Part shown: positions 28,737 through 54,313 of the stretch, piece after piece
Position numbering within the stretch: position 1 is the stretch's first letter
Layout: each line of letters opens with the position of its first letter
Source of the DNA: Hyphomicrobium denitrificans ATCC 51888
Lineage (GTDB): Bacteria; Pseudomonadota; Alphaproteobacteria; Rhizobiales; Hyphomicrobiaceae
DNA length: 64,000 bases
Assembly (NCBI RefSeq): GCF_000143145.1
Contig: NC_014313.1
Location: forward strand, 2,852,001 to 2,916,000
Reading direction: 5' to 3'
Translations under genes and position numbers: made by a program
Notes under the pieces: generated by a model
The model's input: the letters and a program-made list of their open reading frames with translations, nothing else
Told to the model about the DNA's origin: nothing
Databases searched by the model: none

Positions 28737-28750
28737 ATTCCATTGCAGTT

Positions 28751-38495: not shown

Positions 38496-39607
38496 TAGTA
38501 TTGCAGTTGCAGGCCGGCGACGAATTGATCGACCGACGCGAGAGTCGGATCTTCGAAATCTGTTTTCGAATAGAGAAGCGAAACGCGTGCGTCACTGCCG
38601 CGGATGATATAGTTCACTCCTGTTTGCAGGCGTGAAATATCATAGGCATTCTTCGTCAGGAACTCTTCATAACGAATGACGGGCTGCAGTTTTCCAGGTC
38701 CGAAGTTATGATCGATGAGGAAGCTGGCGAGCACGAAATAGCTATCGCCATTTGCCAACGGTGTCGCTTTGTCATCGGTATCATAATGGTAGTACGCGCC
38801 TTCCAGCGTAAGCACGTTGTCGCCGAATACCTTCTTCTGCATCAGGCCGTCGACGTTCCATCCAAAATAGTGCCCTGGATCCAGCGCAGTTCCAGTCGCG
38901 CGGTCTTGAAACGACGTCGAGAATCCGACGGACAAAATTTCCTTCTTTCCGTAGTAGTCGCTCGCCACGTAATAGCCGGGCTCCGGATCCCAGAAGTCAT
39001 AACTGGCGCGGCCGACGTAGAGAAGATCTCCGCCTCCAGCCGCGCCAGTTGCACAAGGACTGTCGCCTCTACAGCCCTCGTAAGCACCTGCCCAATATTT
39101 GAACTTGCCGCCGCCCGTCTGACCCCAGATGGTCACACCATCGTCGCGACCGTTAAAGCGGTTCGGAAATGCGGAGACGATGGGATAATCCCAAACTCCC
39201 AAATAGTATGGACCGTCCAGGTTTGACCTGTCCTGCGGCAACACCATTCGGCCTGCCCAAACATTGAAGTAATCGTTGAATTCGAAGCGCGCGGTGGCAT
39301 CGAGAATGCGAATTCCATCCGGATCGCCGGGCAGATATGGGAATATGCCGCCGCTCGATTCAATTTCAGTGTTGAACGTGAATCCGACGACCTTATTGAA
39401 CTGTCCACTTGTGAGGATACGTGCGCTTTCGAGGAAGCCGTCGGTTTCGCCGTCCGTCGTTCTGAGGGACGCGCGAGCCGCTGCACCGATCGTAACGCTT
39501 GCACCATTTCCGAGGTCTATGGTCTCGCCTGCATGCGCCGAACCCACTCCAATCAATGCAAGTATGGTCGACGAAACACAGAGTCTTATTCTATAGCCGG
39601 TAAGCAT
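38495..39607 (-). CDS. Outer-membrane porin, FmdC-like
   Basis: 370 residues: signal peptide (cleavage near SAHA), then a beta-barrel pattern rich in aromatic alternation, ending VDQFVAGLQLQY with the aromatic C-terminus of outer-membrane proteins. It resembles phosphate-selective (OprP-type) porins. In Methylophilus the related FmdC lies in a short-chain amide/urea transport locus, which fits its position here. The start at 39607 has GGGGGAA before it. The cluster therefore encodes a route for urea or amides across both membranes. Two Cys (CRGDSPC) sit in a likely surface loop. Confidence 0.75.
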   Translation of the reverse strand: MLTGYRIRLCVSSTILALIGVGSAHAGETIDLGNGASVTIGAAARASLRTTDGETDGFLESARILTSGQFNKVVGFTFNTEIESSGGIFPYLPGDPDGIRILDATARFEFNDYFNVWAGRMVLPQDRSNLDGPYYLGVWDYPIVSAFPNRFNGRDDGVTIWGQTGGGKFKYWAGAYEGCRGDSPCATGAAGGGDLLYVGRASYDFWDPEPGYYVASDYYGKKEILSVGFSTSFQDRATGTALDPGHYFGWNVDGLMQKKVFGDNVLTLEGAYYHYDTDDKATPLANGDSYFVLASFLIDHNFGPGKLQPVIRYEEFLTKNAYDISRLQTGVNYIIRGSDARVSLLYSKTDFEDPTLASVDQFVAGLQLQY

Positions 39608-39652
39608 TAATTCCCCCATTGTTGAGATGTCTATTTTCTTGAGTGGAAGACG

Positions 39653-40252
39653 TCACATGGCCCCCGCCATGAGACCGGCTCCGACCAACGCCACGCCCGC
39701 CCCCAGCGAGCGCAGCACCACATCGCCGTAACGGCTCGTGATTCTTGTAATGAGAAGTCCGATGCTGACACCTGCCGCGTGCAACGTGGCGGTCATCAGC
39801 ATGAAGCCGGCTGCGTAAACCAGACCGTTCACGCTCTCCGGCATTTCTGTTCCGTGCGCATGGCCGTGGCAAAGTCCGAACGCTGCGACCAACGCCATCG
39901 CCGAGACCAAACCCAAGTGCGATCTGAAAGCGACCAGCGCTCCGAGCGTGAATACCGAAGCGGCAATGCCAAACTCCGTCAGACCGAAATTGAATCCGAG
40001 CACGCCAAGCGCTGCGCCAATCATCATCGAACCGACGAAGGACGCCGGAACCAGGTAGATCGCTCGACCCCCGAGCTGAGATGCGAACGCGCCCACCATC
40101 ACCATCGCAAGGAGATGGTCGATACCGAACAGCGGGTGTGCAAGACCGTTGGAAAATCCGACAGTCGGACCGAAACCGACATGTGCAGACGCTGCGTTCG
40201 CGAAAAACATGAAACCAGCAGCTAGGACAATTCTTCCTGTCAATGCATGCAT
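39653..40252 (-). CDS. ureJ: HupE/UreJ family membrane protein
   Basis: 199 residues with a signal-like N-terminus and about six further hydrophobic segments. The diagnostic HPLFGIDHLLAMVMVG and a His-rich loop GLCHGHAHGTE mark the HupE/UreJ family, proposed nickel permeases or accessory proteins in urease and hydrogenase loci. It follows ureD by 22 bases and should supply nickel for the urease. No NikMNQO or NiCoT-type gene occurs in the window. Confidence 0.88.
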   Translation of the reverse strand: MHALTGRIVLAAGFMFFANAASAHVGFGPTVGFSNGLAHPLFGIDHLLAMVMVGAFASQLGGRAIYLVPASFVGSMMIGAALGVLGFNFGLTEFGIAASVFTLGALVAFRSHLGLVSAMALVAAFGLCHGHAHGTEMPESVNGLVYAAGFMLMTATLHAAGVSIGLLITRITSRYGDVVLRSLGAGVALVGAGLMAGAM

Positions 40253-40274: not shown

Positions 40275-41150
40275 TTATTTTCTGCGTTTGTGGGGGACTT
40301 TCCCCAATGCCGACTGGACCGCGATGGAGAACAGATCGTCCGTAACAGCGCGCACAGCGGCGGCGCTTGAAGCCAGAATTTTGATGCTCAAACCGGCGTT
40401 GTTGGGCAGTTCGCTGACGCCCGCCACGCAGTCCATTCGGCGCAAAACTTTCGTTGCGATCGCATCGGTCGTGGGCAATCGCGCGCGCTTCCCAAGCATG
40501 AGGAAATTCGCGACGATCGTGAAAGGTCCGATTGGCGTCGTAGCCGCTGCGAAGTCCTGCCCCCCGATTTGGAAGCATTCCCGTACGAGCAATCGGCCAG
40601 ACGTGTCCCGAACAACGGTCTCTGAGCAAAATCTTCCAAACGTGCGTAGATTGTTTGCGAAGTCATGCTCCGTGAACGACTCGCCGACCATCAGCGCAGA
40701 CGTTGGGTGCAACGTAATGTCCAACGATGTCGCGTATTCAGCCCCGGGGAAAAACACCAATGCTTCCGGAACCAGACCTAGAAACGCGTCTTCTTCCATG
40801 TCGATCTGGGTGCATTGGCTAGCCTCACAGCCATAACAATCGTGAACGATTGTTGCCGCCTGCGTCGTGATATGCGCAGCCGTTCCCGCCCGCATCCTGA
40901 TTTGAGATGTGAGGCGATCCGATCGGTAGACGCCGCCTGACGACGACTGCTGATACACGGTTGTAAGCGCCGGGATGTCGGGATCGAGCGAAAACGGCCG
41001 GGTCAGATGAAACGGATACGACACGTACTGGCGTTCGATGATCGTGCGTTCGCCATGGCGCCCGAACGAAAGATCGAAGCGAGATCTATGATCTTGCTTC
41101 TCGCCGTATTGAGGGCGCCGGTCGACTTGTCCGTTCCAATAGACGTTCAT
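40275..41150 (-). CDS. ureD: Urease accessory protein UreD
   Basis: Scaffold that binds apo-urease and helps UreF and UreG insert nickel. 291 residues, normal for UreD (UreH). Recognisable segments are [30 protein letters not shown] and [10 protein letters not shown], with [12 protein letters not shown] later. The ATG overlaps the ureG stop (ATGA), so the two are co-translated. Confidence 0.9.
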
Positions 41151-41794
41151 CGGAACAAAACCTCCGACATCAGTCTGTCCGCAACGTCATCAATGCCTTC
41201 CTGCTGACGGCAGTTCGTGAATGCGAGAGGCCTTCCTCCGCGTGCCGCCGTTGCCTCGCGATTCATGAGTTCGAGATCAACGCCGACGTGCGGCGCGAGA
41301 TCGGTTTTGTTGATGACCAGAAGATCGCACTTGATGAGCCCCGGCCCGTTTTTACGCGGGATGTCGTCTCCGCCGGCGACGTCGATCACGAACATCCACC
41401 AATCGACGAGATCCAGCGAGAACGTCGATGCGAGGTTATCGCCGCCGCTTTCGATCAAGATCAGTTCCACATCTGGAAACTGCGCCTCGAGATCATCCGC
41501 CGCCGCGATGTTCAAGGTGGGATCTTCGCGAATAACGGTATGAGGACAGGCCCCGGCCTCGACGGCTGCAACGCGCTTCGGGTCGATCAAACCTGATCGC
41601 CGAATGCGGTTCGCGTCCTCCGCCGTCACGAGATCGTTGGTCACGATCGCGAGTGAAACGTTACGGCGCGCAAATGCGGGAATAAGACGCTCGATGAGCG
41701 CCGTTTTTCCCGAGCCAACGGGACCGCCGATGCCCACACGGGCCGCGCCAATCCTCAACTTTTCCGTGAGCGAATGTTGTGCAGACACGTTCAC
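41147..41794 (-). CDS. ureG: Urease accessory GTPase UreG
   Basis: GTPase that delivers nickel during urease maturation. 215 residues, typical. P-loop [14 protein letters not shown], metal-binding CPH motif in [13 protein letters not shown], and the guanine-recognition [10 protein letters not shown] are present. It lies three bases after ureC and overlaps ureD. Confidence 0.96.
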
Positions 41795-41797
41795 GGA

Positions 41798-43510
41798 TCA
41801 CCTCAACATATATCGTTGTGATAACGGCAGCTCATGTGCGGGCTCACAGGTCGCCAGCTCGCCATCGACGAAAACATCGAACGTCTGCGGATCGACGCGA
41901 ATGTCCGGGCAGGCGTCGTTGCGCAGCATGTCCTTTTTCGACAGGCGACGCGTTCCGCGTGCGGGCAGCAGGTTCTTTTTCAGGTCCAACGTCTTCGAGA
42001 TGCCGCGATCGATTGCGGCCGGGTTGACGAAGCATGCCGACAACGCCGGGCTGGCGCGGCCGAACGCTCCCCATTGCGGTCGCAGCGCCCTCGGTTCGCA
42101 TGTCATGAGAGACGCCGAGCTGTCTCCCATCGCGCCCCACGCGATGAAGCCGCCCTTGAGGATCAGCTCCGGTTTGATGCCAAAAAACGCCGGGCTCCAG
42201 ACAACGATATCCGCGAGCTTGCCGTCCTCCAGCGAGCCGATGTGATCGGCAATGCCGAAAGTGCGTGCCGGATTGATCGTGTATTTGGCAACGTACCGCT
42301 TGATACGCTCGTTATCGCCGAACGGCGTCGATTCCTCAGGCAGACGTCCCCGCTGACTTTTCATCTTGTCGGCGAGCTGCCACGTTCTACATATGACCTC
42401 GTTGATACGCCCCATGCCCTGACTGTCCGAGCCGAGCATCGAGATCGCGCCGATATCGTGAAGAATATCCTCCGCCGCGATTGTCTGAGCGCGGATGCGG
42501 CTTTCCGCGAACGCCACGTCTTCAGGGATTGCCGGGTTCAAATGGTGACAAACCATCGTCATATCGAGATGTTCGTCGAACGTATTGATCGTGTACGGAT
42601 TGGTGGGATTGGTTGAAGACGGCAGACACCAGGGAAGGCCCGCGACGCGAATGATGTCAGGCGCGTGCCCGCCTCCCGCGCCTTCCGTGTGGTACATGTG
42701 AATGGTACGCTCCGCGATCGCCGCTAGCGTATCCTCGACGAACCCAGACTCATTCAGCGTGTCGGTATGAATTTGGACGGGGAAGTCCATGTCGTCGGCA
42801 AGTGCGAGACAGGTATCGATCGCCGACGGCATCGACCCCCAGTCTTCGTGAAGTTTCAGCCCCAGGCAGCCGGCTTCGATCTGCTCGACGAGAGAAGCCG
42901 GCTTGTGCGAATTACCGCGACCGAGAAATCCGAAATTGACCGGCCACTGCTCCGCCGCCTGCAGCATTTTTCCGACGTTGAATGCGCCACCGCAGTCGAT
43001 GCCGACCGTGATTGGGCCGAGAGAACCGCCGAGCAGGGTTGTAATGCCCGACGCAATCGCGTGATCGCACAGCTGCGCGCTGTCGAAATGAACGTGCACG
43101 TCTATGCCGCCGGCCGTGGCAATCAATCCCTCGCAGTCGCGCACGGCGGTTGCGGCTGAAACGATCAGTCTCGGATCGACGCCATCCATAATGGCCGGAT
43201 TTCCCGCTTTGCCGATTCCGACAATTTTGCCGTCCTTGATGCCGAGATCACCTTTGACGATCCCGACGACAGCATCGATGACGGTCACATTGCAAAGCAG
43301 GAAATCCAGCGCTCCCTCAGTGCTTGTTACGCCAGCCGCGAGCCCGGCTCCGTCGCGAAGCGTCTTGCCGCCGCCGTGAAGGCATTCGTCGCCATAGCTC
43401 GCGAAATCTTTCTCGATCACCGCAACGAGCGAGGTGTCTCCCAAACGGACGCCATCCCCAACCGTGGGACCGTACATAGCGGCGTAGTCGCGACGTGAAA
43501 GTACAGCCAA
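41798..43510 (-). CDS. ureC: Urease alpha (catalytic) subunit
   Basis: Nickel-dependent hydrolysis of urea to ammonia and carbamate. 570 residues, full length. The nickel ligands are visible: [10 protein letters not shown], the carbamylated Lys in [10 protein letters not shown], and His in [13 protein letters not shown] and [13 protein letters not shown]; the flap Cys-His pair is seen in MVCHHLNP. All key residues present. It follows the fused ureAB by 15 bases. Confidence 0.98.
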
Positions 43511-43525
43511 AGTTACGTCTCCTTA

Positions 43526-44224
43526 TCAGCTCGTCCGGAAGCCGCGCTCACGCGCGCGTGTCATCGCCGCCGCTTTCACGGCAGGGTCTCGCGCAGATCC
43601 GTTGGTGAGCCCGTTCAACCCAGAAAGGTGCCGTTCGCCGCCGAATTCGGTGAGTTCAACGATCTTCTCTTGTCCCGGTTCGAACCGGACTGCAGTTCCG
43701 GCGGGGATATCGAGGCGCATGCCAAATGCGGCCTCTCGGTCGAAATCAAGCGCGCGGTTCACTTCAAAGAAATGATAGTGCGAACCGATCTGCACCGGCC
43801 GGTCACCCATGTTCGTGACCTTCAAGCTGGCCTTGCGACGACCGGCGTTGAGCTCGATCTCGCCGTCAATCGCCAGGATTTCACCTGGCGTGAGGGTCGG
43901 CTCGGCCGACGCGCCGGGCTTCGGCCGTAGTGGATCATGGACCGTGACGAGCTTGGTGCCGTCTCTGAATGTCGCTTCCACTTGCAGCATCGGCAGCATC
44001 GCGGCCACGCCGGGCATCACGTCGTCTTGCGTGAGGATCTGCGAACCGATCGACATCATGTCTGCAACGGACTTACCGTCGCGAGCGCCTTCCAGGATTT
44101 CATCGGAAATGAGCGCGACAGCTTCCGGATAGTTCAGTTTCAATCCTCTGCTCCGGCGCTTTCTTGCAAGCTCCGCCGCAGTAAAAATCGTTAAGCGTTC
44201 GAGTTCGGTAGGAGTAAGCAGCAT
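43526..44224 (-). CDS. ureAB: Fused urease gamma-beta subunit
   Basis: 232 residues that join two usually separate subunits. Residues ~1-100 are gamma ([20 protein letters not shown], then [20 protein letters not shown]). Residues ~108-215 are beta ([30 protein letters not shown] and [11 protein letters not shown]). A C-terminal tail of ~20 residues follows. The order matches the two-subunit ureases known from Helicobacter. The fusion seems genuine, as no stop or frameshift occurs between the halves. Confidence 0.95.
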
Positions 44225-44248: not shown

Positions 44249-44929
44249 TCAGTTCGAAAACAAGCGCTGCCCAGTCGCGCCATGCAGTGAGATCGCGATT
44301 TCCGAAAGCGGAATGAATGCCCGTAACGGCTCGTTGTCCGATATCGGCGAGCACGACTCTTCCGTGATGACCGGCAGAATTTTTGCAAGGTAAGCCTGCG
44401 CATCGATTGCGCCGACGAGGCCGAGACGAATGGCTGCCGTCGTCAGTGATGCCGCCGACTGGTATCCGCTCATCAGAACGGCATCGTCTTCGTCGATTTC
44501 GAGTGCATTCCAGAGCAGGCCCTGCGCAACCGCGATATGGCCGAGCGCTTTGCCGTCGCGAACCATGCTCCTGTATGCGCTTGCGTGAGGCGTCCCGATC
44601 CTTTCATGGGAGGTGAGCAAACCCATTCCGTTCCGGCGCGAGCCGATCCTGAGCGGCTCGCTTATTGTCGACGCCTCCACTTCCGCGTCGAGTTCCGCCA
44701 GGGCGTCGAGATCGCTTCCGAGCCTATAGGCTCTCGCAATCACAACGCGTTCGCTGGATGCCCAACGATGCACGATCTGTGCGTGGAGAAAATTCCACAG
44801 GTCGAACTTTCCCAGCCGATCCTGTTGTTGCGATAACGCCTCGAGCCCCTGGGAAAACGCGAAAGCGCCAGACGGGAACTGCGCGTCCGCATGCTGAAAG
44901 GTCCGCAGAATTTTATCGCGCGCTCTCAT
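44249..44929 (-). CDS. ureF: Urease accessory protein UreF
   Basis: 226 residues, all-helical accessory protein that recruits UreG to the apo-urease-UreD complex. Typical sequence FPSGAFAFSQGLEALSQQ near the N-terminus and conserved helices after it. Its ATG overlaps the ureE stop (ATGA). It lies upstream of ureAB. Confidence 0.92.
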   Translation of the reverse strand: MRARDKILRTFQHADAQFPSGAFAFSQGLEALSQQQDRLGKFDLWNFLHAQIVHRWASSERVVIARAYRLGSDLDALAELDAEVEASTISEPLRIGSRRNGMGLLTSHERIGTPHASAYRSMVRDGKALGHIAVAQGLLWNALEIDEDDAVLMSGYQSAASLTTAAIRLGLVGAIDAQAYLAKILPVITEESCSPISDNEPLRAFIPLSEIAISLHGATGQRLFSN

Positions 44930-45387
44930 TGGACTTCCTCGGCGGTTACTCGGCCGTCGCGCAGCATCGGTTCGATGCGGGCGATATAAGTTTCGACCGG
45001 CCCATCAAGGGAGACGAGAATATGTTCGTCCTCGAACCGCACGCGCCAATGCAGATTGCCGACGAGAAAGCCAAGCTCCACCGCGTCGCGCTTCGTATCG
45101 GGAACGACCCGAAGCCAGCGCTGCTCCTGCGCGCGGAGGACGATCGCCTTTTCATCCGTGAGATAGAGAATTGCCCCGTCGAACAGACGCTCTTGCCGCG
45201 ATAGGGCGATCGCCAGATCTTCACCTCGCTCCGTGCGAACGCGCAGTCGCCGGCGATCGAGATCGCTCGGCGCGACGCGCACCGTGTCGACGGCGATGCC
45301 GCGATGCTCGTATTCGTGAAGCTTGTGATGGAGATCCGGATCGTTTCGATCTCCGACAATTCGATCAATGAGCAACATGGCTTTCAC
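44926..45387 (-). CDS. ureE: Urease accessory nickel chaperone UreE
   Basis: 153 residues with the UreE N-terminal peptide-binding part and C-terminal metal-binding ferredoxin-like part (LGFLVGNLHWRVRFEDEHILV). It lacks the His-rich tail of some UreE proteins. The ATG overlaps the urtE stop, joining importer and urease genes in one transcript. Confidence 0.88.
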   Translation of the reverse strand: MKAMLLIDRIVGDRNDPDLHHKLHEYEHRGIAVDTVRVAPSDLDRRRLRVRTERGEDLAIALSRQERLFDGAILYLTDEKAIVLRAQEQRWLRVVPDTKRDAVELGFLVGNLHWRVRFEDEHILVSLDGPVETYIARIEPMLRDGRVTAEEVQ

Positions 45388-46079
45388 AAACCCATATGCC
45401 GATGAATGAGATCATTGGTGAGCTCGTTCGAAGCGCCCGAAACGCGCACGCGGCCCTTCTCCAGAATTGCGAAGCGATGGGCGGCACTGCGCGCGAATCG
45501 GATTTTCTGCTCGATCAGAATGATCGTCAGGCCATGCACGCGGTTGAGCGTCGTGATGGATTTTTCGATGTCCTCGACGACATTCGGCTGAATGCCTTCC
45601 GTCGGTTCATCGAGAAGGAGGACGCTCGGATCTGTCGCGAGAGCACGCGCAATCGCCAGCTGCTGCTGCTGCCCGCCGGAGAGATTTGTGCCCCTCCGGT
45701 GAAGGTGGTCCTTCAGCATCGGGAATGTATCCCACACGAGTTGCGGCACGGATTTGCGTCCGTCCTTGCGTGCGTTACATCCGAGCAAGATGTTTTCCAG
45801 AACCGTCAAGCCTGGAACAATTTCTCTGCCTTGCGGAACGTAGCCAAGCCCAAGGCGCGCCCGCGCATGCGTCGGCAGGGTTGAGATGTCTCTGCCCTCG
45901 AACTCTATGCGTCCCGTTGTATTGACGGTTATGCCGATAAGACTGCGAAGGAGCGTTGTCTTTCCAACGCCGTTTCGACCGAGAAGACAAAAGATCTCGC
46001 CCTCACGTATCTCCAGATCGAGATCGTGAATGATGTGGCTGGTGCCGTAATAGGCATTGAGATGATTCAATTTAAGCAT
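45384..46079 (-). CDS. urtE: Urea ABC transporter ATP-binding protein UrtE
   Basis: 231-residue LivF-type ATPase. Walker A GRNGVGKTT, signature LSGGQQQQLAIARAL, Walker B VLLLDEPTEGIQP; the EGIQP ending is typical of UrtE. The start at 46079 overlaps the urtD stop by eight bases (ATGCTTAA). Together with UrtD it energises UrtBC. Confidence 0.94.
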   Translation of the reverse strand: MLKLNHLNAYYGTSHIIHDLDLEIREGEIFCLLGRNGVGKTTLLRSLIGITVNTTGRIEFEGRDISTLPTHARARLGLGYVPQGREIVPGLTVLENILLGCNARKDGRKSVPQLVWDTFPMLKDHLHRRGTNLSGGQQQQLAIARALATDPSVLLLDEPTEGIQPNVVEDIEKSITTLNRVHGLTIILIEQKIRFARSAAHRFAILEKGRVRVSGASNELTNDLIHRHMGL

Positions 46080-46869
46080 GGCTGAGCGTCGCCGATCCGA
46101 GATAGGCCTCAACTACCGCCTGGTTCCGCTCAATTTCAGAAGCGGTGCCTTCGGCGAGAACGGCTCCCTGGTGCATCACGGTGATTTTTCGACAGATGCG
46201 TTTGACGAACGCCATGTCGTGTTCGATCACCAAAACCGTATGCGAGCCTGCGAGATCGAGAAGAAGCTGTGCGGTCTTGTCGGTCTCCGCCGCCGTCATT
46301 CCGGCTGCAGGCTCATCCAGAAGAATGATCTTCGGGTCTTGGCTCAGCACCATCGCAAGTTCCAGCCACTGCAGCTGTCCGTGCGAAAGCTCCGATGCTC
46401 TGCGGCCAAGCACGTCGCTTAATCCTGTCCGGGCGGCCACTTCGGCCTCCACGTCCGTTGGCCTTGGCGACCGCCACGAAAACAAGTTGGCGAACACGCC
46501 GGTTCGGCGGTTGCTTGCAACCTGAAGATTTTCGAGCACCGTCATCTCTTTAAAGACGCTCGGCGTTTGAAATTTGCGTCCAACGCCGCTCCGGGCGATC
46601 GCCGCTTCTCCGATGCCGGTGATGTTTCGATCCCGCAACCAAACCTCGCCTTCGGTTGGAAGCGTTTTTCCGCAAAGCAGATCGAGCAGTGTCGACTTTC
46701 CGGCGCCGTTCGCGCCGATGATGACGCGCAACTCCCCACGAGCGACGGCGAGATTGACTTTGTTCACCGCGGCAAAGCCGTCGAACTTAACGGTGAGGTC
46801 CTTAGTGCGCAGGACAGTCTCCGTGCACGGAACGCTATCGCTTTCGGAGATATTGAGGATTGCGTTCAT
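46072..46869 (-). CDS. urtD: Urea ABC transporter ATP-binding protein UrtD
   Basis: 265-residue LivG-type ATPase. Walker A GANGAGKSTLLDLLCGKT, signature LSHGQLQWLELAMVL, Walker B IILLDEPAAGMT. The SHGQ(L/K)QWLE signature and pairing with urtE identify UrtD. ATGA overlap with urtC. Confidence 0.94.
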   Translation of the reverse strand: MNAILNISESDSVPCTETVLRTKDLTVKFDGFAAVNKVNLAVARGELRVIIGANGAGKSTLLDLLCGKTLPTEGEVWLRDRNITGIGEAAIARSGVGRKFQTPSVFKEMTVLENLQVASNRRTGVFANLFSWRSPRPTDVEAEVAARTGLSDVLGRRASELSHGQLQWLELAMVLSQDPKIILLDEPAAGMTAAETDKTAQLLLDLAGSHTVLVIEHDMAFVKRICRKITVMHQGAVLAEGTASEIERNQAVVEAYLGSATLSHA

Positions 46870-47957
46870 TGGACGACCTCTTTCAGAGAACGAGGCTGCC
46901 TCAGTTTAGCGATCCACCCCTTCGCGATTCCGGCAATTCCTTCCGGCATGACGAGCACGACAAGCACGAACATCAGTCCGAGCACGATCGGCCACACCGG
47001 CTGGAGCATGACGTTTTCGCTCGCAACTGATCCGATGAAATTGACGATGAGCGCGCCGATGCATGCGCCGAGAAGCGAACTTCTTCCGCCCAAGGCCGCC
47101 CAGATCACCATCGAGATGCTGAACGACGTCGACATGAGCGACGGCGACGCGAACTCGGACGTGACTGCGAACAGCAATCCCGCAATTCCGGCGATAGCGG
47201 CCGAAAGGCAGTAGATGAAGAGCTTATAATTCTCGACGTTGTAGCCAAGATATCGAACGCGAGCGTCGTCTTCGCGGACCGCTTTTAGAACGTGCCCCAT
47301 CCGCGTAGACACGATGAGCCGCGACAGGAGCACGACGACGAGCAGCGCCGCCGCCACGAGATAATAGACGCTCTTTCCATAGGGATCGAATTCGATCCCG
47401 CCGACGCTCAACGGTGCAAGATCGGCTAGCCCATTGAAGCCGCCGGTAAGCGGCTGGTTGTTGATGATGAGCATCTGGCCGATCAGGGCCAACGCCAGCG
47501 TGATGATGCTTACATAGACGCCCGACGTGCGGCGCTTGAACATGACGTATCCAAGCACGGCGGCGATGACACAAGGCACCAAGATTCCCGCAAGCACACC
47601 TATCGAAAGATACTGGAACGGTTGCCAGAGGAACGAGCCTGGCGTCGCGCAGCAGAGATCCCGCGGCGCGTTCGGCTCCATGTTGAGCAACATGAATTGC
47701 GGTACGGGATTGTTGTCCGGCAGCGCCAATGTCAGAGACATTGAGATCATGTAGGCGCCAATTCCGAAGAACAGGCCTTGCCCGAGACTCAAGATTCCCG
47801 CGTAGCCCCACGAGAGGCTGATGCCGACCGCGCATATGGCATAAACGAGGTAGACGGCGATCCTATTTGTCCAGAAGCTGTTCAACGCAAATGGCAATGC
47901 GAAAACAACGGCAAAGAACAGAAAATAGGCCGCGAGTGTAATAGTGCGCTCTTTCAT
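46866..47957 (-). CDS. urtC: Urea ABC transporter permease UrtC
   Basis: 363-residue LivM-type permease with about ten helices; the WGYAGILSLGQGLFFGIGAY motif and the later EDDARVRYLGY loop are characteristic. The start at 47957 gives the normal N-terminus; the frame is open upstream into urtB. Follows urtB by 14 bases. Confidence 0.93.
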   Translation of the reverse strand: MKERTITLAAYFLFFAVVFALPFALNSFWTNRIAVYLVYAICAVGISLSWGYAGILSLGQGLFFGIGAYMISMSLTLALPDNNPVPQFMLLNMEPNAPRDLCCATPGSFLWQPFQYLSIGVLAGILVPCVIAAVLGYVMFKRRTSGVYVSIITLALALIGQMLIINNQPLTGGFNGLADLAPLSVGGIEFDPYGKSVYYLVAAALLVVVLLSRLIVSTRMGHVLKAVREDDARVRYLGYNVENYKLFIYCLSAAIAGIAGLLFAVTSEFASPSLMSTSFSISMVIWAALGGRSSLLGACIGALIVNFIGSVASENVMLQPVWPIVLGLMFVLVVLVMPEGIAGIAKGWIAKLRQPRSLKEVVQ

Positions 47958-47971
47958 AGTGTTTCCAAACG

Positions 47972-48862
47972 TCAGCGATTGCGGCTCACAAAAAGCCCCT
48001 GCGGCTTGAACAGCAGAATGAGAATGACGAATGCGAATAGGACGGTGCGGCCGTAGACATCGTTCGACCACGTCGCAACGAAGCTCTGAACTTCGCCAAG
48101 GATGCCTGCCGACAAAACCGTGCCGAGCAAATGCCCTACTCCGCCAGCAACGACGACCATGAACGCGTCGATGACGTAAGGCGCTCCCATGTCCGGCGAG
48201 ACTGTCTTGAAGCCGGAGACAAGGACTCCCGCTACGCCTGCAAGGCCCGACCCGTATGCGAACGCCAGTGCGTTGATGCGCTTATCGTTCACGCCGCATG
48301 CCGCGGTGATGTCACGCGCCGCCGAAACGGCTCTCAATTGGCTGCCAAATCGCGTCTTGTAGATCAGCCACCAGCTCACGAGTCCGAGGACGGCAGCGAC
48401 CCCAAAAACAAAGGCTCGATACACCGGGATGTTCGTTCCCAGAATATGCAGCGTTTGCTGAAGTTCGGGTGGAACCGGCACGTTTTGCAGATCCGAACCG
48501 AGACCGTCGATATGAATTCCGAAGAGTCCAAACCCAAAATGGATTCGGATCAGCTGCTGCAGAATGAGCGCGATGCCCCAGGTCGCAAGCAGAGTGTCAA
48601 GTAGGCGCCCATAGAGTGGGCGCACTACGAGACGTTCGATGGCGAGACCGAAAAGGGCCGCTACGAGAAAAGCAAGCGGCAGGCAGCTATAGATGCCCAA
48701 TCCCAAATGCTTTGACGCAAGAACCGTGACGTAAGCACCGATCATCACCATCTCGCCGTGAGCGAGATTGATGACTTTCATCGTGCCGTAGACAATGGCC
48801 AAGCCGAGCGCAACGATGAACAGAATGGACGCTATGCTAAGCCCAATTACAAAGGTTTCCAT
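47972..48862 (-). CDS. urtB: Urea ABC transporter permease UrtB
   Basis: 296-residue LivH-type permease. GLAIVYGTMKVINLAHGEMVMIGAY near the N-terminus (positions ~20-45) and the SAARDITAACGVN loop are typical. About eight helices. Lacks the long periplasmic N-terminal extension present in many UrtB proteins. Follows urtA by 51 bases. Confidence 0.93.
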   Translation of the reverse strand: METFVIGLSIASILFIVALGLAIVYGTMKVINLAHGEMVMIGAYVTVLASKHLGLGIYSCLPLAFLVAALFGLAIERLVVRPLYGRLLDTLLATWGIALILQQLIRIHFGFGLFGIHIDGLGSDLQNVPVPPELQQTLHILGTNIPVYRAFVFGVAAVLGLVSWWLIYKTRFGSQLRAVSAARDITAACGVNDKRINALAFAYGSGLAGVAGVLVSGFKTVSPDMGAPYVIDAFMVVVAGGVGHLLGTVLSAGILGEVQSFVATWSNDVYGRTVLFAFVILILLFKPQGLFVSRNR

Positions 48863-48913: not shown

Positions 48914-50158
48914 TCAAAGAGCGGCACCACTTACCTTGCAAACGCGCTTGTCTGCGGTTTCACCGACGCTCGAATACGGCAATGGGACGAGCGGCTCGGA
49001 ATATTGATCGACGATGTCGAACATGCCATCTGCGCGTGCTTTGCCGATACGCGGAGTGAGGAATGAATGAAGATTTTCAGAATCAATCGTGACTTTGCCT
49101 TGGGGCGCGTCGAATGACAGTCCGCCCACGGCGCCCACGACAGCCTTGGAAGAAACGTCGCCTGCCTTGGCTGCTGCCATGGCCCACATATGGACGCCCG
49201 TGTAGACCGCTTCCATTGCCGCGTGCGTTACGGAGTCTGGTCCGGCAAATTCCTTGAACGCCTTCACGAAGGCTTTGTTTTGCGGCGTATCCACTGTCTG
49301 GAAGTACGGCAGCGAAACATAGCTGCCCTTTGCATATTCCGGGCCCATCGCCCGGACCTCGACCTCGGTCGTGGTCGAGGCGCAGAGCGGAAGTTTTTCG
49401 AAGTCGTAACCTTGGTTCCGCAGCTCGCGATAAAACGCGACGATCGAGTCTCCGACCACGTTGGAGAAAATCACATCGGCGCCGCTCGATCCGATTTTGG
49501 AAACCATCGATGCCCACTCGGTGTGACCAAGCGGCAAGTACTCGTCGCCGACGACTTCCATTCCGATCTTGGCGCAAAGCGTTTTCGACGTCTTCGCCAT
49601 GCCGCGCGGAAATGCATAGTCGGAGCCAACAATGAAAAGCTTGTTTTTGCCGAGCTTATTTTTCAACCACGGAATTGAATTCTCGAGCTGCTGATTAGGC
49701 ACGGCCGAGCCGGCGTAGAGAACGCTCTTCGAGCATTCCTCTCCTTCGTACCAAGTCGGCCAAACGAGCAGTCCGCTGCGACGCTCGACGACCGGAAGAA
49801 CAGCTTTGCGGCTTGCGGTCGTGTAGCAACCGAATATCACCGGCACCTTATCTTCAATCGTCAGCTTACGCGCTTTTTCGCTGTAGGTTCTTGGCTCCGA
49901 TGCTGGATCTTCAATGACGGGGCGAAGCTGCTTGCCAAGCACACCGCCTTTGGCGTTGATTTCGGCAATCGCCATCAGCGCGCATTGGTTCATCGATTTT
50001 TCGACGATCGCGGTCGTTCCCGTCAGTGAGTAAAGAATGCCGACAGGGATCGTTTCTTCAGCTCGAAGTGCGCGAGAACCAAGTATTGTCGGCGCAGCCA
50101 ATCCACCCGCCGCAACTCCGAGAACTTTCATAAATTGACGTCTATCGGGATTTTTCAT
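48914..50158 (-). CDS. urtA: Urea ABC transporter substrate-binding protein UrtA, Tat-exported
   Basis: 414 residues of the Peripla_BP_5 / UrtA-FmdD-AmiC group. The N-terminus carries a twin-arginine signal (PDRRQFMKVLGVAAGG, cleavage near LRAEE). The body has IPVGILYSLTGTTAIVEKS, FGCYTTASRKAVLPVVE and PTWYEGEECS, all typical of urea/amide-binding members. AGGGAGGGG lies before the start at 50158. It follows the ANTAR-type leader and is paralogous to the AmiC-like sensor two genes upstream. Confidence 0.94.
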   Translation of the reverse strand: MKNPDRRQFMKVLGVAAGGLAAPTILGSRALRAEETIPVGILYSLTGTTAIVEKSMNQCALMAIAEINAKGGVLGKQLRPVIEDPASEPRTYSEKARKLTIEDKVPVIFGCYTTASRKAVLPVVERRSGLLVWPTWYEGEECSKSVLYAGSAVPNQQLENSIPWLKNKLGKNKLFIVGSDYAFPRGMAKTSKTLCAKIGMEVVGDEYLPLGHTEWASMVSKIGSSGADVIFSNVVGDSIVAFYRELRNQGYDFEKLPLCASTTTEVEVRAMGPEYAKGSYVSLPYFQTVDTPQNKAFVKAFKEFAGPDSVTHAAMEAVYTGVHMWAMAAAKAGDVSSKAVVGAVGGLSFDAPQGKVTIDSENLHSFLTPRIGKARADGMFDIVDQYSEPLVPLPYSSVGETADKRVCKVSGAAL

Positions 50159-50219
50159 TTTCGTTATTCCCCTCCCTTGGCGCTGCCGCTTTTTTCGCGG
50201 CTTGCGCTGGCCAAAAAAC

Positions 50220-50259
50220 AAAAAAAACCCACGTCCCCTCGGTGAAGAGAGAACGTGGG
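50220..50259 (-). terminator. Intrinsic terminator in the urtA leader (attenuator)
   Basis: On the minus strand a 7-bp stem CCCACGT/ACGTGGG (arms 50253-50259 and 50228-50234) with an 18-base loop is followed by eight T residues (50220-50227) and more T-rich sequence. It lies 60-100 bases upstream of urtA and downstream of amiR, so it would end transcripts before the urea operon unless prevented. Confidence 0.88.
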
Positions 50260-50299
50260 CTTCATAGCCTTGCGATACATGACGGCACTGTCGTGTATC
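50258..50299 (-). promoter_or_regulatory. Candidate ANTAR-binding double hairpin in the urtA leader
   Basis: Just ahead of the terminator, minus strand. Hairpin 1 (50299 to 50274) has stem GATACA/TGTATC, one mismatch, then GAC/GTC closing a hexaloop AGTGCC with the A1 and G4 expected for ANTAR targets. Hairpin 2 (50269 to 50258) is GGC/GCC with hexaloop TATGAA (G4 only), and its far arm shares two bases with the terminator stem. A further hairpin CGCTC/GAGCG with a seven-base loop lies upstream (50327 to 50311). Confidence 0.6.
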
Positions 50300-50351
50300 A
50301 GAAATGGAATCGCTCGTGTGCTGAGCGTTAGTTCACGACGATATAGGCACC

Positions 50352-50957
50352 CTACGGATTATTCGTCAATAGAGTGTGCGCTGCAATAATTGCGTCGGCA
50401 AGCTCATCCATTGAAATGCGTTTCGCCATCGCTTGTTGCCTGATGCATTCGTAAGCGGCATCTTCAGTCATCTCGCGAGTCTGCATCAGAATTTCTTTCG
50501 CACGGAGGATCTGTTTGCTGCTTCGAACGCGCCGCTCCAGCTTTCTGATGCGTTTGCTTGCGTTCTGCCTCTCGAGCCAAATCGAACGCGTGATCATGAG
50601 GTTAGTTAGTAAGCCAAAAGGCCTGATCGGCCGTTCGATCACACCGAGTGCACCGCACTCCAAAACGATTTGAACAGTAGACGGATCTTCGAAGGATATC
50701 ACCGCCAAAAGCGCCGGATCCAACGGTTCTACAGGCCGAAACAACTTTAAAATTTGCTCTCGGTGGGATGGCTCAATCGCGATGATGACCACCGATGCAG
50801 CGGGATTAATCTCCTCAGGCAGTGGCCATGTGGCCTCACATGTGCAGCCGATGCGATTAAGATGTTCAATGAGCACTTTGCCTTCCGCATCCGGCGGATG
50901 CAGAACCTGAATGCGCAAACCCTTTAGACTTTGAAGCAGCTCTCTGGACACCGGCAC
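50352..50957 (-). CDS. amiR: AmiR-like ANTAR-domain antiterminator
   Basis: 201 residues: an N-terminal pseudo-receiver (~10-125) with no phospho-acceptor Asp at the expected place (VVIIAIEPSHR), a short coiled coil, and a C-terminal ANTAR domain (~148-198: LRAKEILMQTREMTEDAAYE, then AMAKRISMDELADAII). This is the AmiR architecture: controlled by binding its partner, not by phosphorylation, and acting on nascent RNA hairpins. It follows the amiC-like gene by three bases and precedes the leader terminator of urtA. The start codon appears to be GTG. The name is by family; the inducer is inferred to be urea or a short amide. Confidence 0.87.
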   Translation of the reverse strand: MPVSRELLQSLKGLRIQVLHPPDAEGKVLIEHLNRIGCTCEATWPLPEEINPAASVVIIAIEPSHREQILKLFRPVEPLDPALLAVISFEDPSTVQIVLECGALGVIERPIRPFGLLTNLMITRSIWLERQNASKRIRKLERRVRSSKQILRAKEILMQTREMTEDAAYECIRQQAMAKRISMDELADAIIAAHTLLTNNP

Positions 50958-50960
50958 CCG

Positions 50961-52115
50961 CTACATTCCGTAATTGGACTGGGCTTCAGGCGTATGGCGG
51001 CTCTCGCAAGAGGACGTTACAAAATAAACGTCCGGTCGTATCCTGTTTTCTGATTGCCATACTATGTCGAACTGCCCGGCTTCATTTATGCGGGCAATGC
51101 GTGACCAAAGTTCGGTATGGTGGTTGTCTGGATCGATCCTTATTCGCCCCTGCGGGGCATCAAATTCCATCCCGCGAAGATGCTTGGCTATGAGTTCAGG
51201 ATCGTCGTCTCCAGCTAGTGCAAGCGCCTTTGCGAAAAGATGAACCTGGCAATAAACGGCTTCGGCGCTCGATGTAATCGGTGCGGAAGCGCCAAATCGC
51301 TCTTTAAAAGCGGCAACAAACCGTCGCGCTTCGGGAAGATCCAGGTTCTCAAAGAATGAAGCAGACGTTAGATGGCCGGCCACGATCTCGGGCAGGACGT
51401 TGGAAACTTCTGCTTCGGTCATCGTCAGGCTCGCGATCGGCGTGTCGCGCGGGTTCAGACCCGCTGCATGAAAACTCTCAAACAATTGCTGCGATCCCGT
51501 ACCGACCACGGTCGAGACGATGACGTCCGGCGCATGAACTTTTATGCTCTTTATAATTTTCTCGAAATCTTCGGCCGTCGACTCCACCGGCACGTAAATC
51601 TCGTCCACGACTTCCCCTTTGGACAGTTCCACCAGCTCCGAAATCACCCGGTTGTATTCGCGAGGGAACACGTAATTCGAGCCCACCAGAAGGAACCGGC
51701 TGCCGAACTTCTCGATAAGATATTTGGCTAGTGCGACGGCGTTTTGATTGGCGGCGGCGCCGCCGTAAAAACAACGGCTCGAGTACTCAAAACCCTCGTA
51801 AAATGTGGGATAAAATAGCAGTCCCCGGAAAGCTTCGATCTGAGGAAGAACGACTTTCCTTTCCGATGACATGTAGCAGCCGAAGACGATACGGACCCTG
51901 TCCTCCTTCAGCAGCCGGATCGCATACTCTTGATACTTGGGCGGCGAACAGCCCGGATCATAATGGATAGCGTTAAGATTTCGGCCCAGGACACCGCCGG
52001 CGGCATTGATTTCTTCAATTGCCAGGATCGCCGCGTTCAACTCCGACGTTTCAGCGCCCGCTGTCACTCCTGTTTTAGAGAACAGGACGCCAATTTTCCA
52101 TTCGCCTTCCGCCAC
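50961..52115 (-). CDS. amiC: AmiC-like ligand sensor (negative regulator of AmiR)
   Basis: 384 residues, close to the 385 of Pseudomonas AmiC. IGVLFSKTGVTAGAE, FGCYMSSERKVVLPQIEAF, PTFYEGFEYSS, VGSNYVFPREYNR and VVGTGSQQLFES match the AmiC plan. No signal peptide, so it is cytoplasmic. AmiC holds AmiR inactive until an amide binds. The start is set at GTG 52115 (GGGAAGG before it), which matches family N-termini; the frame is open to a TTG at 52223 that would add a Cys-rich 36 residues. Strong resemblance to UrtA suggests one arose from the other. Confidence 0.88.
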   Translation of the reverse strand: MAEGEWKIGVLFSKTGVTAGAETSELNAAILAIEEINAAGGVLGRNLNAIHYDPGCSPPKYQEYAIRLLKEDRVRIVFGCYMSSERKVVLPQIEAFRGLLFYPTFYEGFEYSSRCFYGGAAANQNAVALAKYLIEKFGSRFLLVGSNYVFPREYNRVISELVELSKGEVVDEIYVPVESTAEDFEKIIKSIKVHAPDVIVSTVVGTGSQQLFESFHAAGLNPRDTPIASLTMTEAEVSNVLPEIVAGHLTSASFFENLDLPEARRFVAAFKERFGASAPITSSAEAVYCQVHLFAKALALAGDDDPELIAKHLRGMEFDAPQGRIRIDPDNHHTELWSRIARINEAGQFDIVWQSENRIRPDVYFVTSSCESRHTPEAQSNYGM

Positions 52116-52247: not shown

Positions 52248-53615
52248 CTAGACCCCAGCGACATCACTTGTATCCGCCGCCGGTAGCTTGAGCACAACCC
52301 AAAGTCCACCCATGCTCGATTTTTGAAGTTTGATGTCGCCACCATAGAGCTGCGCAAGATCTTGTACGATGGCGAGCCCGAGACCGGATCCCGCCTCGCG
52401 GGAATCCCATCGTTCGCCGATGTCGAACACGACCTCGAACGCTTCCGGCGGCAACCCCTTCCCATCATCTTCCACGTACAGATCGAAAGTCTTGTCGGAG
52501 GTCGGCCCATGGCACGAGATGCGAACACGAGATTTTGCGTGCTTGCAGGCGTTGTCGACAATGTTCGCCAGCATTTCATTGAGGTCTTGGGGATCGCAGG
52601 CGACTAGAAGACCATCGGAGACGTCGACGGTTATCGCCACACCGGTTTCTCCGTACAGTCGGCGAAGAGCGCTGGCGACCTCCTCCGCGCCTTTGCGAAC
52701 CTCTGCCACTGTGCCAGGGATCGACCGGAGGGCAACGGCACGGGCACGCGATATCTGGTAATCAATCTGGGTCTGCATTTTGCGACATTGCGTCAGGATC
52801 GTTGCTGACGATTGCGGCAGGCCGTTTTCCTCGATGCGATATGCCTCGTCCGTCAAGACGGCGAGAGGAGTCTTTAATCCGTGTGCCAAATTTCCAGCCT
52901 GCGTCCGCGCCCGCTGTATCAGCTCTGACGTCGAAACGAGTAGGGCATTAAGGTCGTTGACCAAGGGGAGGACTTCCAGCGGGTATGCACCGTCCAGCTT
53001 CCTGGAAGCGCCCGTTCGTACATCGGCCAATGAGCTTCGCAATGTGTTCAACGGCTTCAGCGCGTACAAGATCAGGAGTACAGCGCCTGCGATCATGGAT
53101 AATCCGAATCCGATCAGAGCCCACGACAGAATGCTGCGGAACCGAGACACGGCGACGTCGACGTGACGTTGATCGGTCCCGACAACAAATTGCACCGGCG
53201 TGCCGTCAATCGTCCCGTCCGTACGCGCGGCGAAGAGAACAGTACCTGTCGGTCCCGCGCTTTTGCCAGCGTGCGTGCCGGTACCTGCCGGAAAATCCGG
53301 TGGCATCGACAGCCAGGAATTTTCCAGAGAGGCCGACTTCGCGAGAACTTTACCCGCTGCCTGGATTTCCCAATAATATCCCGACATCGGGATGTCGTAG
53401 CGCGGGTCGCTGAGTTGACGTGAGAGACGAGGCGGCGCGCCGGGCTTGAATTCCGCCAAGTGAACGAGTTCATCCAGATGCTCGTAGATTTCGATGTAGA
53501 TCTGGTCGGACACGTGGCGCTTGAATACTCCCGACAGAACGAAACCCGCCGAGATCATTCCGATTGTAATCCACAGCGTGGCGGCCAGGATCAGTCGTTG
53601 TTTCAAGCTCGTCAT
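52248..53615 (-). CDS. Sensor histidine kinase of the metal-efflux two-component system
   Basis: 455 residues: helix (~8-28), periplasmic sensor (~30-165), helix (~170-190), HAMP, H-box NLAHGLKTPLAVL, N-box VDNACKHAKSRV, G1 DDGKGL and G2 GSGLGLAIVQDLAQLYGG. It is eight bases after the response regulator and diverges as an operon from the czcBA genes. The signal may be the exported metal, but the sensor shows no Cys and only scattered His, so the ligand cannot be read from sequence. Confidence 0.92.
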   Translation of the reverse strand: MTSLKQRLILAATLWITIGMISAGFVLSGVFKRHVSDQIYIEIYEHLDELVHLAEFKPGAPPRLSRQLSDPRYDIPMSGYYWEIQAAGKVLAKSASLENSWLSMPPDFPAGTGTHAGKSAGPTGTVLFAARTDGTIDGTPVQFVVGTDQRHVDVAVSRFRSILSWALIGFGLSMIAGAVLLILYALKPLNTLRSSLADVRTGASRKLDGAYPLEVLPLVNDLNALLVSTSELIQRARTQAGNLAHGLKTPLAVLTDEAYRIEENGLPQSSATILTQCRKMQTQIDYQISRARAVALRSIPGTVAEVRKGAEEVASALRRLYGETGVAITVDVSDGLLVACDPQDLNEMLANIVDNACKHAKSRVRISCHGPTSDKTFDLYVEDDGKGLPPEAFEVVFDIGERWDSREAGSGLGLAIVQDLAQLYGGDIKLQKSSMGGLWVVLKLPAADTSDVAGV

Positions 53616-53623
53616 GCCGCCGC

Positions 53624-54313
53624 TCAGTCCATCCGGTATCCGAGTCCGCGAACAGTGGTAATGACGTCAGCGCCGAGCTTCCGCCGCAAGCGGCTGATGT
53701 AAACTTCGATGGTATTTGACTCCCGGCTGTCCTCGAGCGCGTAGAGATGATCGACCAGCTCGGCCTGCGAAACGATGCGGCCAATGCGATGCATGAAGTA
53801 GGTCAGCATCTTGAGTTCACGCGCGGTCAATTCGATGCTCTCGCCGTTTTGGCAGACACGGTTCGATGTCGTATCGAGCGAGATGCCACCATGGCTGAGC
53901 ACCGGACTCGCAATTCCCGAGGCGCGCCGGATCAGCGCTTTAAGCCTTGCCGCAACTTCGGGGATGTGGAACGGCTTGGTGATGTAGTCGTCCGCGCCTG
54001 CGTTAAGACCGTCGACTTTCTCCGCCCATGTTCCACGCGCGCTGAGAATCAAAACGGGGAGCTTGCGATCGGACGCGCGCCAGCGCTTGAGAACGTCAAG
54101 CCCCTGCATCTGCGGAAGTCCGAGGTCGAGGATTGCCGCGGCGTACGTGTCGTCCAATCCCATGGCATAACCATCAGCCCCGTTGTCCGCGCGTTCGACA
54201 GTAAATCCTGCTCGCGCAAGACCGGCTACAAGTCGATCGGCGATTTCATCGTCATCTTCTATCAGCAGTATGCGAATGGGCGTCTCCCGCGTGTCCACGC
54301 TTTCTAGCAGCAT
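53624..54313 (-). CDS. OmpR-family response regulator next to RND efflux genes
   Basis: 229 residues: receiver with EDDDE pocket, Asp in AAILDLGLPQMQG, Lys in DDYITKPFH; winged helix ending VYISRLRRKLGADVITTVRG. Probable activator of the divergent czcBA-type operon, by position and by the phased repeats in between. The ribosome site region (CAGGAAGATG) overlaps one arm of the operator-like repeat, so autoregulation is likely. Confidence 0.93.
   Translation of the reverse strand: MLLESVDTRETPIRILLIEDDDEIADRLVAGLARAGFTVERADNGADGYAMGLDDTYAAAILDLGLPQMQGLDVLKRWRASDRKLPVLILSARGTWAEKVDGLNAGADDYITKPFHIPEVAARLKALIRRASGIASPVLSHGGISLDTTSNRVCQNGESIELTARELKMLTYFMHRIGRIVSQAELVDHLYALEDSRESNTIEVYISRLRRKLGADVITTVRGLGYRMD

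Follow-up and report, generated by a model that had tools for sequence, protein, structure and literature searches.

A predicted AmiC/AmiR-type antitermination switch ahead of a urea uptake and urease operon in Hyphomicrobium denitrificans

The amiC-amiR-urt-ure locus

Within the 64,000-nucleotide (nt) window analysed here (Hyphomicrobium denitrificans ATCC 51888, contig NC_014313.1, positions 2,852,001 to 2,916,000), genes for an AmiC-like ligand-binding protein and an AmiR-like ANTAR protein lie, together with a structured leader, directly in front of genes for urea uptake and urease. All of these genes are carried by the minus strand, in the order amiC, amiR, leader, urtABCDE, ureEF-AB-C-G-D-J, porin and hydrolase. 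An earlier note on this DNA, whose coordinates (50158–52115) span amiC, amiR and the leader only, had interpreted the arrangement as an antitermination switch for the whole operon; our analysis supports that interpretation, and from the cargo we infer urea as the ligand. Genome-wide searches refer to the organism's own genome, a single contig of 3,638,969 bases.

The first gene (50961–52115, GTG start at 52115) encodes a putative cytoplasmic sensor of the Peripla_BP_5 family, whose best solved relative is AmiC of Pseudomonas aeruginosa (1pea; 306.9 bits, 43% identity), ahead of urea-binding proteins, and which by inspection has no leader peptide or other export signal (the translation begins VAEGEWKIGV). 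It adjoins amiR (50352–50957), which encodes the predicted antiterminator, composed of an AmiR_N (110.8 bits) and an ANTAR domain (52.2 bits), with P. aeruginosa AmiR (1qo0_D) as best solved relative (131 bits with the profile). The phospho-acceptor Asp of a neighbouring true receiver aligns with Ala in the AmiR-like protein, the N-terminal domain of which is a pseudo-receiver; both proteins are thus what the earlier note had taken them to be. Of the residues described as contacting RNA in EutV (PMC8934654), Lys143, Tyr164, Arg168, Met172 and Arg175 are kept and Lys147 is replaced by Arg, as mapped by alignment with a two-residue numbering offset deduced from the letters.

Downstream of the leader follow a urtA-type gene for a periplasmic binding protein with a non-canonical pocket (48914–50158), urtB (47972–48862), urtC (46866–48071 as the listed open reading frame (ORF), which overlaps urtB, the true start probably lying further in), urtD (46072–46869) and urtE (45384–46112, ORF as listed). 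UrtB, UrtC, UrtD and UrtE all score above the curated NCBIfam cut-offs; UrtA falls below its own (404.5 bits versus 492.75) and has a twin-arginine-like N-terminus by inspection. The urease part comprises ureE (44926–45387), ureF (44249–44929), a fused ureAB for the gamma and beta subunits (43526–44224), ureC (41798–43510, ORF as listed), ureG (41147–41794) and ureD (40275–41150), so that structural and accessory genes are all in place, and is followed by a ureJ/hupE-like gene (39653–40252), a porin-like gene (38495–39619; Porin_O_P, with an ExtI-like match below cut-off) and a gene for an isochorismatase-family hydrolase (37836–38495). The gene content listed in the earlier note is confirmed, with the reservation made for UrtA, and so is its remark that no further promoter is obvious downstream: from urtA to the hydrolase the largest intergenic gap measures 51 nt, and no promoter-like site was found on the minus strand, for which reason a promoter inside the operon was rejected. 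The terminator in the leader has the most pairs among the 13 terminator-like sites listed for the operon stretch.

The leader RNA

The leader between amiR and urtA (50159–50351, 193 nt) folds more stably than all of 200 shuffled versions (z −4.2). The strong terminator that the earlier note had recognised in it (50220–50263) consists of a stem of 17 pairs (50263–50224; −27.2 kcal/mol, z −6.2) and a T-run (50227–50220), and is the stronger of the two sites in the window that satisfy a hairpin-plus-T6 rule. It is preceded by the hexaloop hairpin with A1 and G4 that had likewise been pointed out, here termed P1 (50274–50299), which reads GAUACACGAC-AGUGCC-GUCAUGUAUC and forms nine pairs around one C.A mismatch; the mismatched position is a C-G pair in the closest named relative, in which P1 is fully paired. 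A second hairpin, P2 (50258–50269), had not been named; it reads GGC-UAUGAA-GCC and lies fourteen bases 3' of the P1 loop. Because its GCC is also part of the terminator's 5' arm, close to the base, P2 and the terminator are mutually exclusive, and the same exclusion is described for EutV (PMC3369931, PMC8934654).

Across the 75 leaders that carry a terminator and P2 (the window included), the first base of the P2 loop is U in 42, A in 19 and G in 14, and G4 is present in all 75, the search for P2 having made no demand for it. As G4 is universal and positions 1 and 6 include the non-pairing combinations G-A, A-C and A-A, we read P2 as a hexaloop. Measured against the dual-hexaloop motif as described in 2012 (PMC3369931), the leader has two hairpins of at least three pairs, the second overlapping the terminator base, and departs from the strict demand for A1 and G4 in both loops, with which AGUGCC of P1 agrees; UAUGAA of P2 has G4 but U1. 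The G4 and short closing stem that define a single hexaloop in the 2022 description (PMC8934654) are found in P1 and P2 alike, with the caveat of a possible U1-A6 pair in P2. The leader is thus built to work like a dual-hexaloop ANTAR motif yet lies outside the strict 2012 definition. A scan of the window with Rfam at gathering thresholds returned no known family in the leader, the only hit lying elsewhere.

Conservation of gene order and cargo

Relatives were collected by scanning an AmiR protein alignment against genome contigs, which gave 140 encoding stretches, the best 80 of which were taken as loci (cited below by their L numbers). AmiC adjoins AmiR in 79 of them, the exception, L054, beginning at a contig edge, and in 74 a terminator with GGC-N6/7-GCC at its base lies 3' of amiR, the six others being L049, L056, L060, L084, L094 and L113. 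Counted over the terminator-bearing leaders with the window included, GGC-N6/7-GCC occurs in 75 of 76. The gene after the leader is urtA in 51 loci, amiE in 23, ureE in four and none in two; the synteny of amiC, amiR and leader with urtA or ureE that the earlier note had suggested looking for therefore exists in 55 of 80 loci, and the circuit is not peculiar to H. denitrificans.

Among urtA-led loci the cargo is urease without amidase in 15, amiE plus urease in 15, nitrilase in 12, urtA alone as far as seen in six and amiE in three; the remainder carry amiE without urease (14), amiE with urease (nine), ureE directly (four) or no cargo (two), and further genes may be hidden in these counts where contigs or loci end early. 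The closest named locus, L047 of Hyphomicrobium sp. AWTP1-10, has the same gene order and an AmiR that is 90% identical; further relatives occur in Aminobacter, Mesorhizobium, Labrys and Aestuariivirga, and by record titles the hosts are mostly soil and plant-associated alphaproteobacteria. In a separate sample of 199 genomes of the order, AmiR_N was detected in 44 at E 0.001 and above cut-off in 40. AmiC is adjacent in all 30 loci fetched from this sample, and in seven, the window's own included, the next gene encodes UrtA (at least 48% identity); the other 23 include, by inspection, amiE (L004, L009), nitrilase-like (L003, L005, L008, L015, L019, L021) and hydantoinase-like genes (L006, L011).

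Covariation in the leader

Two alignments were drawn from the 75 leaders. A3 contains 43 that were not chosen for P1; its 32 omissions are 11 Rhizobium-group leaders and 21 further ones, for the most part near duplicates. A4 contains 33 and omits the 15 leaders of the window's clade, the 11 of the Rhizobium group and 16 more; these 16 include L052, L070, L083 and L101, which have P1 mismatches or an internal loop, so that A4 leans towards structure and A3 therefore gives the fairer count of covariation. In A3 the P1/P2 structure gathers 58 cells of two-sided change versus 24.5 ± 3.9 after shuffling and a covariation score of 0.265 versus 0.140; none of 500 shuffles reaches either the score or the cell count, and on these two measures all slid versions of the structure are beaten. 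A4 exceeds 500 of 500 shuffles on all five measures (56 cells versus 13.8 ± 3.5), with two-sided change in 10 of the 11 P1 pairs. P1 hence covaries in relatives, and the leader hairpins are conserved there, the lack of which the earlier note had named as an argument against the switch; the pairs of P2 hardly vary and are for that reason uninformative. The script that called P1 demanded a C-G closed loop with G4 and so provides no independent test of G4. Such a test is given by the invariant columns of A3, which include the closing C and G and the G4 of P1 as well as GGC/GCC and the G4 of P2. The spacing from P1 to P2 is near-fixed across leaders.

A covariance model built from the 33 leaders of A4 (R1), that is without the window's clade, ranks the leader first of nine matches in the window (17.8 bits, E 0.09; the next match reaches 13.6 bits). 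With E values up to 5 allowed, R1 finds the leader at its position in 31 of the 47 loci left out of the model, among them 13 of the 14 from the window's clade (19.1 to 27.3 bits, E 0.015 to 0.70). It misses 16, namely L038, L049, L056, L084, L094, L103–L112 and L114; of the six loci without a terminator that has GGC-N6/7-GCC at its base, L060 is matched at 35.1 bits and L113 weakly at 16.5 bits.

Binding pockets and the likely ligand

In Prochlorococcus UrtA, changes at Trp120, Ser122, Gln144, Tyr190 and Asn246 are described as reducing or abolishing urea binding (PMC10392092). We use the numbering of that protein, transferred by way of chain 7s6e on the basis of motifs and their spacing rather than by aligning the Prochlorococcus protein itself. 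At positions 120, 122, 144, 190 and 246 the operon UrtA has Tyr, Thr, Trp, Tyr and Val, and the operon AmiC Tyr, Ser, Phe, Tyr and Val. The operon UrtA combines a score below cut-off with the lack of the canonical Trp120, Ser122, Gln144 and Asn246, and by its pocket residues the transporter is therefore not a canonical UrtA and has a pocket closer to the AmiC type.

Residues 120, 144 and 192 were compared in the 48 loci that have both AmiC and UrtA. YFF in AmiC goes with YWF in UrtA in 15 loci (the window's clade, urease without amidase), HLY with HHY in 12 (nitrilase cargo), and YLY, YQY or YLF with YYY in 21 (16 with amiE, four with only urt seen, and L113, which has urease but no amidase). 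The pockets of sensor and transporter thus differ together between clades, on a handful of evolutionary events. AmiC and UrtA share the same residue 120 in every one of the 48 loci, an agreement that is suggestive and not proof because few changes underlie it. Phe144 was rejected as a marker of urea, since it also occurs in the amiE-ure loci L087, L092 and L099 and the amidase-less L113 has Leu144.

The operon UrtA and the operon AmiC are the only two UrtA-like proteins of the genome, in which both urtA and urease are single. No FmdA-type amidase was found in it, a genome-wide search with AmiE gave weak matches to the nitrilase superfamily alone (E 3e-7 and 5e-7), and the operon holds no known amidase gene, the output by which AmiC/AmiR amidase operons are recognised; for these reasons we do not class it as an amidase operon. 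Urease is therefore its only recognised catabolic output, and urea accordingly the most economical inducer.

The best-placed alternative keeps the same switch and makes a short-chain amide (formamide or acetamide, for example) the inducer, with a transporter of the FmdDEF kind for amides and urea and with urease riding along. Both pockets are indeed of the AmiC type (Tyr120, Thr143, Val246) and unlike canonical UrtA, and amiE is found somewhere in the cargo of 41 of the 80 loci. Set against this are the lack of FmdA and the no better than weak AmiE matches in the genome, the difference of both sensor and transporter of the window's clade at 144 and 192 from most loci with amidase cargo, and the number of changes that urease cargo without amidase or nitrilase requires on the AmiC tree. 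On a quick AmiC tree, calculated with the three pocket columns masked and accompanied by a long-branch warning (L049, L050, L056 and L113 among the rows concerned), the window's clade (15 rows) has support 99 and groups with L049, L050 and L056 (support 95), and cargo with urease and neither amidase nor nitrilase requires at least three changes over the 71 labelled rows. We consider an amide inducer unlikely.

Transcription start and the role of the terminator

In the window, the 500 nt that precede amiC contain no sigma-54-like −24/−12 site within three mismatches. At two mismatches or fewer such sites appear in 12 of 77 upstream regions, the window's included, versus 211 of 1540 random stretches, which is no enrichment, and NtrC/sigma-54 control through the region upstream of amiC was therefore rejected. 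Sigma-70-like sites between amiR and P1 are seen in five of seven nitrilase-type loci and in five of 49 urtA leaders (L037, L043, L045, L046 and L054, the first four in the window's clade). A promoter in this interval was rejected for the window, as no such site is seen there or in L047, where the interval measures 49 and 42 nt, respectively. Transcription in the window may start upstream of, or within, amiC-amiR, in which case the regulators would be the always-read head of the operon.

A more conventional explanation would have the hairpin simply end the amiC-amiR transcript, with urtA read from a promoter of its own (for instance one dependent on NtrC and sigma-54) and AmiR acting elsewhere or not at all. 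Terminators are common at gene ends, and the sigma-70-like sites of some relatives could be taken in the same sense; they lie before P1, so that the leader would still be transcribed. The 61 nt from the T-run to urtA contain no promoter-like site and, by inspection, are conserved relative to L047 only around the ribosome-binding region, and a plain terminator would not need the near-fixed spacing of P1 and P2. We regard this explanation as improbable.

The proposed switch

Without ligand, AmiC would hold AmiR, the terminator would fold and transcription started upstream would stop just past amiR. An inducer, most likely cytoplasmic urea, would fill AmiC and free AmiR, which would then dock on P1 and on P2 as the latter emerges. 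By capturing the GCC close to the foot of the terminator stem, P2 would keep the terminator from closing, and the polymerase would continue through the transporter, urease, porin and hydrolase genes. Our own analysis contributes the genes, the hairpins with their conservation and covariation in relatives, the synteny and the absence of AmiE- and FmdA-type amidases from the genome. The holding of AmiR by AmiC, its release by ligand and the order of binding are carried over from P. aeruginosa AmiC/AmiR and from EutV, and the choice of urea from the cargo. On this basis we put the probability that amiC-amiR and the leader form an antitermination on-switch for the urt-ure operon with urea as main inducer at roughly 0.6; the same switch with any small amide or urea as inducer is very probable.

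Several observations weigh against this assignment. The P2 loop begins with U rather than A, and a U1-A6 pair could turn it into a tetraloop. Asn173 and Arg177 of EutV are lost in the AmiR-like protein, and the canonical urea contacts Trp120, Gln144 and Asn246 are absent from both AmiC and UrtA. The number of pairs with two-sided change in A3 shows no excess (nine versus 8.2 shuffled). With R1 only 15 of the 47 left-out loci reach E 0.01, and the window's clade contributes none of these 15; of the 61 matches listed for the left-out loci, 30 lie away from the leader; over the organism's own genome the leader comes second of five listed matches with a non-significant E of about 5 (150 of 3072 candidates scored). 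Finally, no promoter was recognised in the window upstream of amiC or of P1. R1 was rejected as a source of a genome-wide list of AmiR targets, being insufficiently specific.

Two further alternatives concern the parts rather than the plan. That the locus is a decayed copy that no longer responds is suggested by the C.A mismatch in P1 and by the lack of a third hairpin, P3, found past the terminator in relatives; the reading frames are open and L047 retains the same order, an AmiR of 90% identity and a fully paired P1, and we hold decay to be very improbable. Least probable of all is control of the leader by the other ANTAR protein of the genome (3046116–3046277) instead of the neighbouring AmiR. 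In its favour are the existence of this second protein and the close similarity described for the RNA targets of ANTAR proteins (PMC7496416); against it stands the position of the leader behind amiR in 74 of the 80 loci, with the qualification that the loci were found through amiR.

Origin of the cassette

AmiR_N above cut-off was found only in the genome of H. denitrificans ATCC 51888 among 79 sampled genomes of the family, 31 of which, this one included, have a strong match to the urease alpha subunit (E below 1e-40); six sampled congeners have no AmiR_N and weak urease alpha matches. The G+C content of the cassette is 56.7% versus 59.6% for the window, which is a weak hint only. The isolated occurrence of AmiR_N in the family, taken with the relatives in Aminobacter, Mesorhizobium, Labrys and Aestuariivirga, suggests a single self-regulated cassette, amiC-amiR-urt-ure, that moves as a whole.

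More tentatively, and with somewhat less than even confidence, the locus can be viewed as a horizontally mobile, self-regulated urea cassette in which one binding-protein fold would do duty both for scavenging, in UrtA, and for sensing in the cytoplasm, in AmiC, the two pockets changing together by clade, and in which RNA antitermination would make urease inducible by urea through a pocket that differs from the canonical UrtA one. Control would be layered in many relatives, with a third ANTAR-type hairpin past the terminator and an attenuator before amiC.

Relation to known systems

The P. aeruginosa amidase operon has the gene order amiE-B-C-R-S. In H. denitrificans amiC-amiR precede the attenuator instead of standing behind an amidase gene, and the cargo is urt-ure without amidase; AmiC has Phe and Phe at positions 144 and 192, where the P. 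aeruginosa protein has Pro and Tyr. The two systems share, beside the related AmiC, an AmiR_N plus ANTAR protein with pseudo-receiver and a leader terminator with hexaloop hairpins (PMC3369931). With the EutV/dual-hexaloop motif of Enterococcus faecalis the leader has in common two hexaloop hairpins, the second overlapping the terminator base, a G4 in both and a short, near-fixed linker (PMC8934654, PMC3369931). It differs in an AmiR without phospho-acceptor Asp and in the first base of the P2 loop, only 19 of the family's 75 leaders, the window's not among them, having the A1 of the motif there. Ramesh et al. (2012) list ANTAR RNA hits upstream of urea transporters among other nitrogen genes, in main-text passages that name no AmiC/AmiR, urease, ligand or organism for these hits (PMC3369931).

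The fmdCABDEF cluster of Methylophilus methylotrophus likewise combines a porin with a binding-protein-dependent amide/urea transporter and is described as induced by formamide and urea, with formamidase in place of urease (PMC10781810); a search of that review for AmiC/AmiR gave no hits. Amide cargo linked to AmiC/AmiR or to urtABCDE is described for plasmid amiE-amiC-amiR-ABC transporter operons and for a chromosomal amiE-fmdA-fmdB-urtABCDE arrangement (PMC13209695). In searches confined to open-access papers, no description of AmiC/AmiR control of urea transport or urease was recognised. The protein pair and the RNA logic are thus known, and what is new is the cargo, the gene order and probably a retuned ligand.

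Urease control is usually described in terms of nitrogen status, pH, nickel or DNA-binding activators. Substrate-gated RNA antitermination of uptake and urease would, if true, be a different control logic, and one linked to urtA or ureE in 55 of 80 loci. The loci supply pairs of AmiC and UrtA with differing pockets, from which the tuning of a single fold to urea, formamide, acetamide or other amides may be learnt, and leaders varying in P1, P2, P3 and an extra attenuator, which allow models of ANTAR action to be tested.

Additional observations

P3, a third hexaloop hairpin past the terminator (A1 and G4, C-G closing, at least four pairs), is present in 41 of 75 leaders versus 57 of 2220 random stretches from the same loci (L035–L042, L044, L048, L051–L054, L057, L079, L081–L083, L085, L089, L091–L093, L096–L099, L101–L112 and L114), with its loop 18–54 nt after the start of the T-run. 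It was rejected as part of the window's switch, being absent from the window and from L047. In 31 leaders selected for pairing it has 54 cells of two-sided change versus 27.9 shuffled, and seven such pairs versus 6.9, P3 having been chosen for at least four pairs before the pairs were counted; it looks like an extra ANTAR site. In the Rhizobium group (L103–L112, L114) no A1/G4 P1 was seen before the terminator, and P2 (A1, G4) and the post-terminator hairpin are textbook examples; these leaders may have two ANTAR sites flanking the terminator.

A second terminator lies 5' of amiC in 23 of 77 upstream regions, 19 of the 23 having, by inspection, a P2-like hexaloop at the base (listed for L049–L053, L057, L083, L094, L103–L112 and L114), and none was found in the window; it probably serves autoregulation by AmiR. 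Another hairpin, GAAAC-AGYGSC-GUUUC, with an A1/G4 loop and no terminator, stands about 93–111 nt before the AmiC match in L035–L042, L044–L046 and L048, hairpins of this kind being seen in 16 of 77 upstream regions versus 125 of 2280 random stretches. L084 has two divergent amiC-amiR pairs, one beside a urt cluster, and L050 has amiE 9 kb away in the opposite direction.

Among six genomes searched, only that of L047 gave a strong match to the isochorismatase-family hydrolase of the operon (69% identity), at a position that adjoins the locus; three genomes gave weak matches only, and two gave none. The hydrolase could possibly take an amide-type substrate. The second ANTAR protein of the genome (C1:3046116-3046277, plus strand, locus L001) scores 79 bits within an open frame of 237 amino acids and is perhaps NasT-like, by way of a guess. 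Directly upstream of amiC, separated from it by 132 nt, the minus strand encodes a histidine kinase and an OmpR-type response regulator (52248–54313); a tblastn search with the two against the 80 loci returned just one hit, a response regulator encoded on the opposite strand in L074. The Rfam hit elsewhere in the window is a glycine riboswitch aptamer on the minus strand (28647–28745, 63 bits).

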